In this document: positions 15,014 through 18,703 of the stretch, piece after piece | Numbering within the stretch: position 1 is the stretch's first letter | Layout of the letters: each line of letters starts with the position of its first letter | From: Bacteroidales bacterium | Lineage (GTDB): Bacteria > Bacteroidota > Bacteroidia > Bacteroidales > F082 | Reading direction: 5' to 3' | Assembly (NCBI GenBank): GCA_017538795.1 | Contig: JAFYIE010000066.1 | Location: 49,006-113,005, forward strand | Length of the DNA stretch: 64,000 nucleotides | Notes under the pieces: model-generated | Seen by the model: only the letters and a program-made list of their open reading frames with translations | What the model was told of the DNA's origin: nothing | Databases searched by the model: none | Made by a program: the position numbers and the translations under genes

Positions 15014-15037
15014 AAATTTGATTGTTAATAAACGTAA

Positions 15038-15102
15038 TTAGTCGTCATTATCGAGTTGCCACCTTTCTACGAAAGCTGAAGGCTCGATAATTGACGACTA
15101 AT
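15038..15102. repeat. Long hairpin, dispersed B-type copy, likely terminator of the M13 gene
   Basis: GTAATTAGTCGTCATTATCGAG pairs with CTCGATAATTGACGACTAATTAC (about 22-bp stem with one asymmetry). The outer arms match the B-type hairpins at 10.6-10.9 kb, but the interior differs (ACCTTTCTACGAAAGCTGAAGG). It lies 25 bp past the peptidase stop. Confidence 0.75.
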
Positions 15103-15176
15103 TACTTAAAGATTGAGAGCAAAGATGTCATGTATTATGATGTCTCTGATTTTTTATGTTTTTTTTCAAAAAAATG

Positions 15177-15204
15177 TTGTAATTTAATATTTTTTGTATA
15201 TTTG
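15177..15204 (+). promoter_or_regulatory. Promoter of the structured RNA / caspase operon
   Basis: TTG at 15177-15179 and TATATTTG at 15197-15204, 17 bp apart, in AT-rich DNA. Transcription should begin around 15209-15211, exactly at a 5' hairpin. It is the only clear promoter found between the M13 gene and the three-gene operon starting at 15471. Confidence 0.65.
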
Positions 15205-15208
15205 CAGT

Positions 15209-15410
15209 GGTTTAAGCAATTAAACCTCTACTTACTGAAATTAACGAAGCGTTATGCTTGTCTTGTGAATGAAAACGTAGGAAATTTTCATTAAAAGTTG
15301 CAAGAATAGTATAATGGTTCGCGCTGTTACAGCGTGGGCTATACCCATTCTTCAACTTTAGGTTTTTCCTACGACCTTCATTCAGAGATTGGCATACAGT
15401 TCCACGCTTC
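15209..15410 (+). ncRNA. Candidate structured RNA (rod-like, about 200 nt), leader or independent ncRNA
   Basis: It begins with a perfect hairpin GGTTTAA-GCAA-TTAAACC (15209-15226). Then nested helices pair outward-in: 15246-15252 GAAGCGT with 15404-15410 ACGCTTC; TATGC 15253-15257 with GCATA 15392-15396; TGAATGAA 15266-15273 with TTCATTCA 15377-15384; CGTAGGAAA 15276-15284 with TTTCCTACG 15365-15373; AAAGTTG 15294-15300 with CAACTTT 15353-15359; AAGAAT 15302-15307 with ATTCTT 15347-15352; GTATA 15309-15313 with TATAC 15340-15344; apical CGCTG-TTA-CAGCG (15322-15334). The architecture recalls 6S RNA, but I cannot assign a family. No U-rich terminator follows, so it may be a 5' leader of the operon. 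Confidence 0.6.
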
Positions 15411-15470
15411 CTTTATTGATTAACTAACGTTTAGCTCATGATGGAACTGACATGGGATGGAGGAAAAAAT

Positions 15471-16160
15471 ATGAAAAAGAATTTACACCTTCTCATCACA
15501 GCATTCATGCTGTTTGCTTTCACATCATTCTGCAACGCTCAGGAAAAAGATTACAAAGAGTTCATGAAGGAACGCAAGGAAATGCAGAAATTCACCAAAG
15601 ATCAATTAAAGGAAAAAGTTTCAAAATCAACTCAAAAAGAAGCTAAGACATTACAAAAACAGGGATGGAAGGTATCTCCAGGATCATTACCGCTCGACAA
15701 ACAACTTGAACGTGCATATCAGATGCAATATGAACTTGATATGGAAACCGGTTTCCCAAAATATATTCAAGGCACAGCATTATCTTCCGGCGCAACATAT
15801 GATGCAGCCAAAATGCAAGCTATGAATCTCGCAAAGATTGAATTGGCGGGCAATATAGCATCCGAAGTGGGTGCACTCATCGACAGTCGTGTAAGCAATA
15901 ATGAACTTGGCAAAACTGAAGCCGAATCGGCATCAGAATCTGTTATGGCGGCCAAGAGCCTCATTCAGCAGAAGATAGGAAGGACCATTCCTGTAGTGGA
16001 AGTTTATCGTGATTTAAAAAACAAGAACAAAGAAGTAAGAGTTGTCATTTTATATAGCAGCGACATGGCCAAAGCGGCAGCCAAAGAAGCTATTCGTGAG
16101 GAGATGACAAAAAAATCGGACAAGCTCGCCGACCAATTGGACGAAATCTTAGGTTTCTAA
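15471..16160 (+). CDS. Secreted LPP20-like protein, first gene of the caspase operon
   Basis: 229 aa. The start is the ATG at 15471 after AGGAGG-like GGAGGAAAAAAT; an in-frame ATG at 15438 lacks a signal peptide. Signal peptide 1-23 (FCNAQ). A charged helical stretch (about 24-65) precedes an LPP20-like alpha/beta domain with ATYDAAKMQAMNLAKIELAGNIAS and a C-terminal charged helix. There is no lipobox, unlike classical LPP20. Function unknown. It is followed 3 bp later by the DUF4384 gene; together with the caspase they form one transcript. Codon use is more A/T-rich than in the neighbouring M13 gene. Confidence 0.7.
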   Translation: MKKNLHLLITAFMLFAFTSFCNAQEKDYKEFMKERKEMQKFTKDQLKEKVSKSTQKEAKTLQKQGWKVSPGSLPLDKQLERAYQMQYELDMETGFPKYIQGTALSSGATYDAAKMQAMNLAKIELAGNIASEVGALIDSRVSNNELGKTEAESASESVMAAKSLIQQKIGRTIPVVEVYRDLKNKNKEVRVVILYSSDMAKAAAKEAIREEMTKKSDKLADQLDEILGF

Positions 16161-16163
16161 ACC

Positions 16164-17012
16164 ATGAGACGATTAGTTTTTTCAATTATACTGATGGTAT
16201 TCGCCCTCGTATGCCACGCACAAAAAACGGTCAATGTGAGTGGCGAATACCGTTATGTGGTACCTGAAAACGTTTCAATAACTGATGCCAAGAACATAGC
16301 AATCGAAAGGGCTAAAAATGAGGCATTAGCAAAAGAATTCGGGACTGTAGTGTCACAAACTAACACCAGTACAATGCAAACTGTTGACGGCAAAGTTGAA
16401 ACCAACTTCTTGTCAATAGGCGGCACAGAATCGAAAGGTATTTGGCTAAGCGACACTAAGGAACCGGAAATTAGTATTCTTTACGAAAACGATGTTATGG
16501 TTGTAGTAGCCAAGGTCTTTGGCAAAGCAAGAGAAATTAAAAATTCTGAAACAGAGCTGGAAGTCACAATATTGTGCAATGGTACAAAAAGCGATAATTT
16601 CAAAAACAACGACTTTTTGTCTGTCGATTTCAAGGCTGCGTCAAAGGGTTATGTTGCGATTTTCCTACGTAATGATAATATTGATGACCCGGTTTACTGC
16701 TTACTGCCATATGAAAATGAAAACGGCGAGCCTCGTGCTGTGAAAAGTAATGCAACAAACACGTTCCTTTCTACAAAAGACCCCATTTACCCTTACTCGG
16801 AAGAAACGATTTTGGTAACTGATAAAATCATTGAAATTAACAAAATAATAATTGTTTTCTCGAAAAACAAATTTGATATACCTCTTTCAGAACACGGAGA
16901 GTTTGTAGATGAAATCCCAGCAGAGAAATTCAACAAATGGCTACGCAAGAATCGCATCAACGATGAGACAATGCAGGTGATTGAAAAAACTGTGGAAATA
17001 AGAAAAAAATAA
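16164..17012 (+). CDS. Secreted protein with DUF4384-like C-terminal domain
   Basis: 282 aa with a signal peptide (LVCHAQ, cleavage about 19). The N-terminal half resembles the LPP20/flagellar assembly T-type fold: ITDAKNIAIERAKNEALAKEFGT. The C-terminal half contains VDFKAASKGYVAIFLRNDN...VYCLLPYENENG, the core of DUF4384, a domain repeatedly found beside caspase-fold genes in bacteria. Middle gene of the operon, 20 bp before the caspase gene. No catalytic residues recognised; a periplasmic binding or scaffold role is plausible but unproven. Confidence 0.65.
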   Translation: MRRLVFSIILMVFALVCHAQKTVNVSGEYRYVVPENVSITDAKNIAIERAKNEALAKEFGTVVSQTNTSTMQTVDGKVETNFLSIGGTESKGIWLSDTKEPEISILYENDVMVVVAKVFGKAREIKNSETELEVTILCNGTKSDNFKNNDFLSVDFKAASKGYVAIFLRNDNIDDPVYCLLPYENENGEPRAVKSNATNTFLSTKDPIYPYSEETILVTDKIIEINKIIIVFSKNKFDIPLSEHGEFVDEIPAEKFNKWLRKNRINDETMQVIEKTVEIRKK

Positions 17013-17032
17013 TCAGTAAAACGTTTTATCTC

Positions 17033-18703
17033 ATGAAAAAAATCAAAATACTGGCAATATTGTTGGTTATGGTCATGGTATTGCCTTCATGTGCCACTCT
17101 TTTTAAACGCAAGGCGACATTCACAGCAAACACTACTACAGCAGATGAGCTTAGCATAGACAAAGTAACATATTATAATGTGACATTCCCATTTAGTGTT
17201 CGCCTAAAAGGAGGATATGGAAAGACAAAAGTTCACGCAAAAAACAGCAATAATCAGGAAGCCGATCTTGTTATACGGAAAAAATTCAGGACAATGTTTG
17301 TTTTCGATTTGCTATGTGGTGGCGTTCCTGGTGTCATCGATATTTTTTCAGGGAATGTTACAAAACCAATTCAGCAGGATTTCTATCTGAGCTTTGAAGA
17401 AAAGCAAATCCCCAACCAGGACATTGATATAAAAGCCACTGAACAAAGCACACCACTTCAGCCAACAATAGCACTTCAGCCGAATATAAAAACAATCAAC
17501 GTTTATTATTGCAATATTATCAGAAACAATTATGATAATATGATTTCCATAGGCGACAATAATTATGTAACAGATTTGAAAAACAATTATTACATAAGAA
17601 TTTACACTGACGAGCAAAAGCTATTATTCACTAATAGATTCGCGCCAAAAGGGACACCGTTTGAAGATGTTATGCAACTGAAAGGCAATCAGTTCGAGTT
17701 ACGCATGAATAACACCGAAAGAGAATACTATCTTTATATAGTTTACGATGGTACTATTCATGAAAAAAACAAAGATGATTTTGACAAAAAGCTTCCTAAA
17801 TTAAGTTTGCAGGGAGATTATGTGTATAAAGACAACAAAGTCACGCAACCGGATTCTTATCAGCAACAAGAAGGAATGGCACCTATTGCGGCTCAGCAAC
17901 CCGCAAAGAAAACGGCTCCTACGATTGCAAGCGATGTTGACAAAGCTCCTGTTACAAACGTAAAATCGCCTAACACCTTCGTTCTCATTATAGCTAACGA
18001 GCATTACACCTTTGTTGACAATGTAGATTATGCTATTCACGACGGTGAGGTTTTCAATGAATACTGCATCAAAACATTAGGTGTGCCTGAGAAACAGGTG
18101 TGGTTCTATAAAGACGCTTCGGCCGGTATTATCTCCGGCGGTGTCGGCAAGATGGTGCAAGCGATGAGCCTGTTTGAGAACTCCAAAGCCATTGTTTATT
18201 ACTGCGGTCATGGCATTCCGGATGAGCACACTGGCGACGCTTACATAGTGCCGACCGACGGCAACGGCAAGAATCTCGCGACATGCTACAGCCTTAACAA
18301 GCTTTACACAACTCTTGCAGCTTCGAATGCAGCGAGTGTGACATATTTCATGGACGCATGCTTCAGCGGTGCAAACAAGGAGGGCTCAATGCTTGTGGCG
18401 GCACGTGGCGTAGCTCGTGAAGCGAAGAAAGAGACTCTTAAAGGAAATACCGTTGTTTTCTCAGCAGCATCAGGCGATGAAACGGCTATGACATACAAGG
18501 AAAAAGGTCACGGCTTGTTCACTTATTTCCTTTTGAAGAAACTTCAAGAAACTAAAGGTGATGTCAGCTATGGCGACCTCGACAAATACATAAAAGACAA
18601 CGTGAAACGTGAGTCGTTCCTCACAAACGAGAAAGTTCAGACCCCGACAACCAACGTTAGCGAAAATGCAGTTAACAGTTGGCGAAATATGAGGTTGAAA
18701 TAG
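17033..18703 (+). CDS. Caspase-fold (C14) peptidase lipoprotein
   Basis: 556 aa. Lipoprotein signal with lipobox VLPSC (Cys20). Residues 21-130 form a beta-rich domain ending in a hydrophobic glycine-rich segment (FVFDLLCGGVPGVIDIFSG). Residues about 130-290 have no recognised family. A low-complexity linker (about 290-315) leads to a caspase domain (about 318-530) with both catalytic residues: H393 in YYCGHGIPDE and C443 in FMDACFSGA. Caspase-fold enzymes cleave after Arg/Lys or Asp; specificity is unknown here. The lipid anchor places it in the envelope, not the cytoplasm where most defence caspases act. It ends the operon before a strong terminator. Confidence 0.88.
   Translation: MKKIKILAILLVMVMVLPSCATLFKRKATFTANTTTADELSIDKVTYYNVTFPFSVRLKGGYGKTKVHAKNSNNQEADLVIRKKFRTMFVFDLLCGGVPGVIDIFSGNVTKPIQQDFYLSFEEKQIPNQDIDIKATEQSTPLQPTIALQPNIKTINVYYCNIIRNNYDNMISIGDNNYVTDLKNNYYIRIYTDEQKLLFTNRFAPKGTPFEDVMQLKGNQFELRMNNTEREYYLYIVYDGTIHEKNKDDFDKKLPKLSLQGDYVYKDNKVTQPDSYQQQEGMAPIAAQQPAKKTAPTIASDVDKAPVTNVKSPNTFVLIIANEHYTFVDNVDYAIHDGEVFNEYCIKTLGVPEKQVWFYKDASAGIISGGVGKMVQAMSLFENSKAIVYYCGHGIPDEHTGDAYIVPTDGNGKNLATCYSLNKLYTTLAASNAASVTYFMDACFSGANKEGSMLVAARGVAREAKKETLKGNTVVFSAASGDETAMTYKEKGHGLFTYFLLKKLQETKGDVSYGDLDKYIKDNVKRESFLTNEKVQTPTTNVSENAVNSWRNMRLK

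Follow-up and report, generated by a model that had tools for sequence, protein, structure and literature searches.

The 64,000-nt stretch of Bacteroidales bacterium contig JAFYIE010000066.1 analysed here (the window, to which all positions refer) contains one member of a family of 5' leader RNAs which we judge, from sequence comparison and with moderate confidence, to act as transcription attenuators. In the window the leader heads a three-gene operon with a caspase-domain gene. Permutation and alignment statistics indicate that three pairings among its strands, b:a', a':b' and a:b, covary although b and a' can each serve one partner at once, the results for a:b being mixed.

The leader and its fold in the window

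An earlier note on this DNA had described nested pairs forming a rod at 15246–15410 and a perfect 5' hairpin at 15209–15226 (GGTTTAA-GCAA-TTAAACC), and both are present in the sequence. It had proposed comparison with dinucleotide shuffles and a search for covariation in relatives as checks, and the rod withstood both. The minimum free energy of 15205–15470 was -80.6 kcal/mol against a shuffled mean of -55.36 (SD 4.98; z = -5.07), with none of 200 dinucleotide shuffles folding as well; and in 101 copies aligned to R1, a covariance model built from 28 homologues, the 12 pairs of helices P2b and P3 covaried at 20–31 SD and were 94–99% paired. Conserved internal loops flank P3 (A's opposite ACC; AUUUU opposite AGG) and include near-invariant bases: A15274 (101/101), A15275 (98/101), U15286 (100/101), C15375 (98/101) and C15376 (97/101). 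A further supposed helix, P5 (AGGU paired with ACCU, both on the 3' strand), was discarded, having many unpaired cells and unconvincing compensation. The segment between promoter and rod folded with z < -2 in 57 of 116 copies tested. The parts of the locus are as follows, with the basis of each assignment in brackets.

15197–15204, + strand: TATATTTG, a putative -7 promoter element of the TAnnTTTG type (sequence)
15209–15226, + strand: 5' hairpin at the predicted transcription start (sequence, fold)
15246–15265, + strand: strand a, partner of b' in the rod and of b in the alternative (strand-swap and column tests)
15254–15268, + strand: putative ultra-short upstream ORF (uORF), ATG CTT GTC TTG TGA, MLVL stop (stop-codon statistics)
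15266–15283, + strand: 5' strands of core helices P2b (15266–15272) and P3 (15276–15283), with conserved A's between (covariation)
15294–15300, + strand: P4 helix, 5' strand (fold)
15301–15326, + strand: strand b, partner of a or a' (a:b, z = -11.1; b:a', z = -13.0)
15330–15350, + strand: strand a', partner of b at the rod apex and of b' in a terminator-like helix (covariation, swap and column tests)
15353–15359, + strand: P4 helix, 3' strand (fold)
15366–15384, + strand: 3' strands of P3 (15366–15373) and P2b (15378–15384), with conserved ACC between (covariation)
15385–15409, + strand: strand b', partner of a' or a (swap and column tests)
15408–15417, + strand: U-rich tract UUCCUUUAUU at the end of b', interrupted in the window copy (family U enrichment)
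15442–15449, + strand: S4, TGGAACTG, a tentative part, perfect complement of 15397–15404 in b' (complementarity, helix-length test)
15471–16160, + strand: operon gene 1, signal-peptide-like N-terminus, without a Pfam family
16164–17012, + strand: operon gene 2, without a Pfam family
17033–18703, + strand: operon gene 3, caspase-domain protein (Peptidase_C14, E = 1.2e-14; Pfam)

A strong inverted repeat at 15034–15105, between an M13 peptidase gene and the leader promoter, is probably the terminator of the upstream gene.

Distribution and genomic setting of the family

A DNA search found homologues in 24 of 60 genomes, often several per genome, and R1 matched 95 of 99 genomes of the window's genus (46 of the 46 better ones), 87 of 295 genomes sampled across Bacteroidales and 18 of 296 sampled across the phylum; the window's own genome, where R1 matched at 13 places, is included in each count. 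Rod and apex were recognisable at nine inspected loci from the phylum-wide survey, at least three of which (L340, L341 and L347) had an ORF start 40–52 nt downstream. Twelve genomes behind named loci, picked as copy carriers, held 2–18 R1 matches each, and an exact-pattern scan of named genomes gave at least 118 stretches; copy numbers per genome are lower bounds, with up to 28 counted in the genus survey and up to nine in the order and phylum surveys. Among the 80 matches listed were Bacteroides xylanisolvens, B. gallinarum, Phocaeicola, Parabacteroides, Alistipes, Butyricimonas, Prevotella and Xylanibacter. Copies were also present in seven records of a plasmid collection (one of them 1.77 Mb long) and one record of a phage collection, and nine viral contigs matched an element pattern; on three plasmid stretches the copy fills an unannotated gap immediately before a gene. 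On the antisense strand R1 gave weak scores of 21–33 bits, counted copies scoring at least 39 bits. The 164 copies analysed were mostly top-scoring matches and no random sample (L070, at 30.7 bits, was dropped); removal of two redundant cores left 162, and removal of five with less than 250 nt downstream left 157. Longer variants of 196–197 nt with an extended apical loop, scoring about 57 bits, were seen at L325 1276–1471 and L322 1572–1768. In the fragmented genome G051, six of nine copies among the matches listed lay less than 400 nt from a contig end, a hint that their surroundings vary between strains or are repeated.

Nothing in the window reached the gathering score of an Rfam 15 family; around the rod, at E ≤ 10, the best scores were far under threshold, and on 20 diverse loci at E ≤ 0.1 the sole match was DUF805b, at 25.5 of 35.6 bits. 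This sub-threshold match lies at L069 1710–1747, 38 nt after a rod that lacks the AUG. The element is not described in the portions of the literature examined, including those of PMC9723704, PMC8040213, PMC7366714 and PMC2965389, and supplementary candidate lists (e.g. that of PMC8040213) may contain it. The family is apparently unnamed.

Of 160 unique copies with enough sequence on the 5' side, 132 had the TAnnTTTG motif in the 130 nt upstream, compared with 21.2 expected from shuffles, at a median of 53 nt before the rod; the 130 nt downstream contained it in only 12. A same-strand ORF of at least 50 aa started 10–400 nt past the element in 149 of 157 copies (median 63 nt), and among the eight without one by this rule is L004, where an ORF starts immediately after the element. 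With the cut raised to 100 aa the figures were 129/145 against 62/145 in a mirror-image control. The first downstream proteins (141) gave matches to 74 Pfam families, of which the Por secretion tail (nine) and SprB repeats (six) were commonest, and no shared pathway was evident among the 25 commonest of the 74. Since the element thus combines a promoter motif, a same-strand ORF and varied downstream families, we regard it as a 5' leader that serves many unrelated genes.

By a crude heuristic, signal-peptide-like starts were found in 107 of 138 first genes of at least 100 aa, compared with 36 of 75 genes in second position at these loci and 22 of 45 window genes; these sets are a fairer comparison than upstream ORFs (13/80), among which spurious ORFs make the background too low. 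So measured, the leader appears to precede exported-protein genes more often than background.

The earlier suggestion that the leader may control the caspase genes gains from this context, in which promoter motif, rod and same-strand gene recur at more than 100 loci, and from paralogues of the operon. By visual comparison of lengths and N-termini, the genome has the leader with the first two operon genes at three places, including window 15246–18703 and L349 (G000:C17:24700-33200); a caspase-like third gene was seen at at least two of the three, and the third place reaches a contig end. Between leader and start codon, genus copies such as L002, L011 and L030 contain GTTGCGCCCGACACG, exactly in 7 of 29 copies listed and nearly so in five more. 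On B. uniformis plasmid pBUN1 (L308 6001–6220) a copy lies downstream of a MobV relaxase gene and directly upstream of an annotated beta-lactamase gene. Copies also stand right after MobV-like genes at L320 and L337 (by eye) and after an annotated toprim-hypothetical pair at L307, as if at these three loci the leader marked where the cargo region of a small mobile element begins.

Exclusive pairings, a short frame and a possible mechanism

The earlier note overlooked a second set of helices that can form from the strands of the same rod. We examined the competing pairings with a strand-swap test, in which partners were exchanged between 75 copies of less than 75% identity (5000 permutations, ignoring relatedness). 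None of the 5000 permutations reached the native value for b:a' (z = -13.0), a':b' (z = -13.3) or a:b (z = -11.1), and the controls a:a' and b:b' gave z = +0.6 and z = -1.8. Differences of a few z units mean little in this test, because z = -3.3 was obtained for a control in which b' was paired with the upstream flank; the base of the rod, a:b', was unsupported among the 75 copies (z = -1.2).

Column counts on 101 copies were compared with 500 shuffles, again ignoring relatedness, and with slid versions of each pairing. Paired cells made up 94.9% for a':b', 72.4% for a:b and 88.3% for a:b', and for each of the three the covariation score was higher than in every shuffle and every slid version. 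The support for a:b' depends on an alignment made with a model in which those pairs are already present. Because R1 holds P1, P2b, P3 and the apical pairs, its alignments lean towards the rod and not towards a:b or a':b'. For a:b, double-sided changes occurred at nine pairs against a shuffle mean of 9.0 (342/500 shuffles reach it), and further pair types were marginal (40/500 shuffles reach them). Column G15332 in a' has two covarying partners, C15324 in b (4.8 SD) and C15407 in b' (5.9 SD). The strongest change in an a':b' pair, G-C to C-G, is contributed by three copies in the genome to which the window belongs.

Mean duplex energies sum to -34.9 for a:b with a':b' and to -27.5 for a:b' with b:a', P4 and loop costs being left out. 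When window transcripts were grown, the minimum-energy fold contained a:b at seven tested ends from 15326 to 15370 and b:a' at six tested ends from 15380 on. The nested fold of the full window transcript favours the rod, and termination would therefore need kinetics or a factor.

The claim of the earlier note that no terminator precedes the operon is doubtful, because the element itself ends in a candidate terminator; yet its U-tract is interrupted here. In the family, the 8 nt matching 15409–15416, at the end of b', contain a mean of 5.6 U against a background of 2.3, and 83% of 162 copies have at least five U compared with 8% of background windows. Interruptions are frequent in the subfamily with an AUG in strand a, the window copy included. 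A pairing of b' with the downstream S4 (S3a:S4) was unconvincing in the energy swap test (z = -2.1, with 117/5000 permutations reaching it, and z = -3.3 for the upstream-flank control) and was present in 15 of 25 representatives (p = 0.06). Helices of at least 7 bp with the downstream stretch were found in 59/89 and 38/72 copies, against 11/89 and 13/72 for the upstream control, and S3a:S4 helices of at least 6 bp in 70/89 and 49/72 against 49.0 and 35.2 expected after swapping. We have kept S4 as a tentative part because this helix-length result is better than that of the energy test. Since S4 lies 3' of the U-tract, it would pair with b' in read-through transcripts only.

In the AUG subfamily a start codon lies inside strand a (window 15254–15256). 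Among 196 sequences selected for the AUG motif, 97% had an in-frame stop by the tenth codon, compared with 65% and 30% for the other frames and 52% after shuffling; the resulting frames are of 4–9 codons (peptides e.g. MLIL, MLVL and MLDL). The 5' strand of P3 has UAG or UGA at a fixed place in the 177 sequences that remain once 19 of the 196 without a recognised P3 motif are left out (another copy, L022, has UAA). Where this P3 stop is in frame (113 sequences) an earlier in-frame stop is present in 45, and where it is out of frame (64 sequences) in 63 (Fisher, 6e-17); counting distinct strings only, the figures are 22/57 and 36/37 (1.1e-9). In the window the second in-frame stop is a TAG at 15278–15280, within P3. 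By eye, GUG replaces AUG, with an in-frame stop, in L136 and L160 (one genome) and in L339. As we saw no pairing constraint that would give this stop pattern, we infer from selection on the stops that the frame is translated. The uORF is not a family-wide feature: the AUG was at the strand-a site in 49 of 101 aligned copies, which were picked for diversity, and in most copies without it P3 is free of the stop pattern. Since roughly one sampled copy in two has no AUG, a uORF cannot provide the input throughout the family; in the AUG subfamily it makes the ribosome a possible input.

With a:b and a':b' set against b:a' and a U-tract following, the layout has the strand logic of an attenuator. 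The helix a':b' with the U-tract would be an intrinsic terminator, b:a' the antiterminator and a:b the anti-antiterminator. In the AUG subfamily, including the window copy, a ribosome starting on the uORF would keep a off b, and with a so occupied b would pair with a', allowing read-through; when the ribosome is absent a:b would form, leaving a' free for b', and transcription would stop near 15410–15417. In the window, control would fall on the caspase operon with its three genes. Which way the switch acts is our guess from the order of the strands. Counting against attenuation are the terminator loop of about 60 nt, which is unusual, and the 4–9-codon frame, which is short for a classical amino-acid sensor. 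More tentatively, we put forward a Bacteroidota-wide switch in which one ribosome on this tiny frame may drive the four-strand exchange around a fixed central helix, such that a scattered set of surface, secreted and mobile-element genes (here the caspase operon) would follow translation-initiation capacity or ribosome inhibition and not a metabolite.

Other readings and known systems

The exchange of strands could instead be the expression platform of a riboswitch-like leader, with the loops beside P3 binding a small molecule or protein and the uORF being secondary or the property of one subfamily. The near-invariance of those loop bases in the 101 copies, the large share of sampled copies without an AUG and the many unrelated, often exported products, which would suit a second-messenger regulon, are all consistent with this; it is nevertheless rather unlikely, given that the 25 commonest of the 74 Pfam families (141 proteins) reveal no common pathway and that the stop pattern of the AUG subfamily demands a role for translation. 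Improbable, too, is a stabilising or insulating 5' UTR lacking conditional termination, in which rod and S4 would protect the mRNA or set its translation and the alternative pairings would reflect internal symmetry. The preference of the full-length nested fold for the rod, the place of S4 past the U-tract and the interruption of that tract in many copies agree with such a role, but a rod alone leaves the covariation of a:b and a':b' and the enrichment of U unexplained.

We give very little weight to a small RNA in its own right, about 200 nt long, that would end at the U-tract and act in trans, the gene being read by leakage only: the majority of copies do have a promoter motif and a terminator-like end, but a further TAnnTTTG follows within 130 nt in just 12 of 160, yet 149 of 157 are followed by a same-strand ORF. 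A dispersed repeat of MITE or REP-like palindromic type with no role in expression is hardly tenable, for although the element is multi-copy, quasi-palindromic (with weak antisense scores for R1 as well) and found on plasmids, its strand-specific promoter, gene orientation, compensatory changes and uORF pattern all disfavour it.

If the attenuator reading is true, a common element unnamed in Rfam precedes exported and mobile-element genes in many Bacteroidales, the carriers including Bacteroides, Phocaeicola, Alistipes, Prevotella and Butyricimonas among the matches listed. The leader-bearing genes would then be a ready list for tests of common regulation, a connection of surface gene expression with the state of the ribosome would become testable, and there would be a possible explanation of how mobile-element genes carry their own regulated promoter-leader unit. 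Attenuators, uORFs and modular leaders are known kinds; the combination of a central helix joining both halves, a tiny frame and unrelated genes was not encountered in Rfam 15 or in the portions of the literature examined.

The earlier note had also offered a 6S-like RNA. The family shares with 6S RNA a long rod with bulges, but this identity was rejected: there is no covariance-model match in Rfam, genomes contain several to many copies, and these are located before genes (same-strand ORF in 149/157). The c-di-GMP (GEMM) riboswitches are one RNA class that stands before many unrelated, often exported proteins, with several copies per genome. The present family is like them in its varied, often exported downstream proteins and in its copy number, and unlike them in having no Rfam match. 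In the Bacteroides element CTnDOT, tetQ is under leader-peptide control through a very short leader ORF, by translational attenuation of one gene. The likeness, one of description, is that of a very short ORF in a Bacteroides leader; the family differs from tetQ, where attenuation is translational and concerns a single gene.

A trp-type attenuator has a leader peptide and strands 1-2-3-4 of which 1:2 and 3:4 compete with 2:3. The family departs from it in a uORF of 4–9 codons that has no runs of regulatory codons and is missing in many copies, in the conserved P2b/P3 helix that links the two halves, and in heading unrelated genes with several copies per genome; no regulatory codons matching an operon product were found in peptides such as MLIL, MLVL and MLDL, and the downstream genes are of many kinds. 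It resembles the trp type in being the leader of a gene or operon, in a putative short ORF over strand 1 in one subfamily (AUG in 49/101 sampled copies), in a U-tract after 3:4 in the family (interrupted in the window copy), and in the exclusive pairings 1:2 and 3:4 versus 2:3, with covariation that is mixed for 1:2, the counterpart of a:b.
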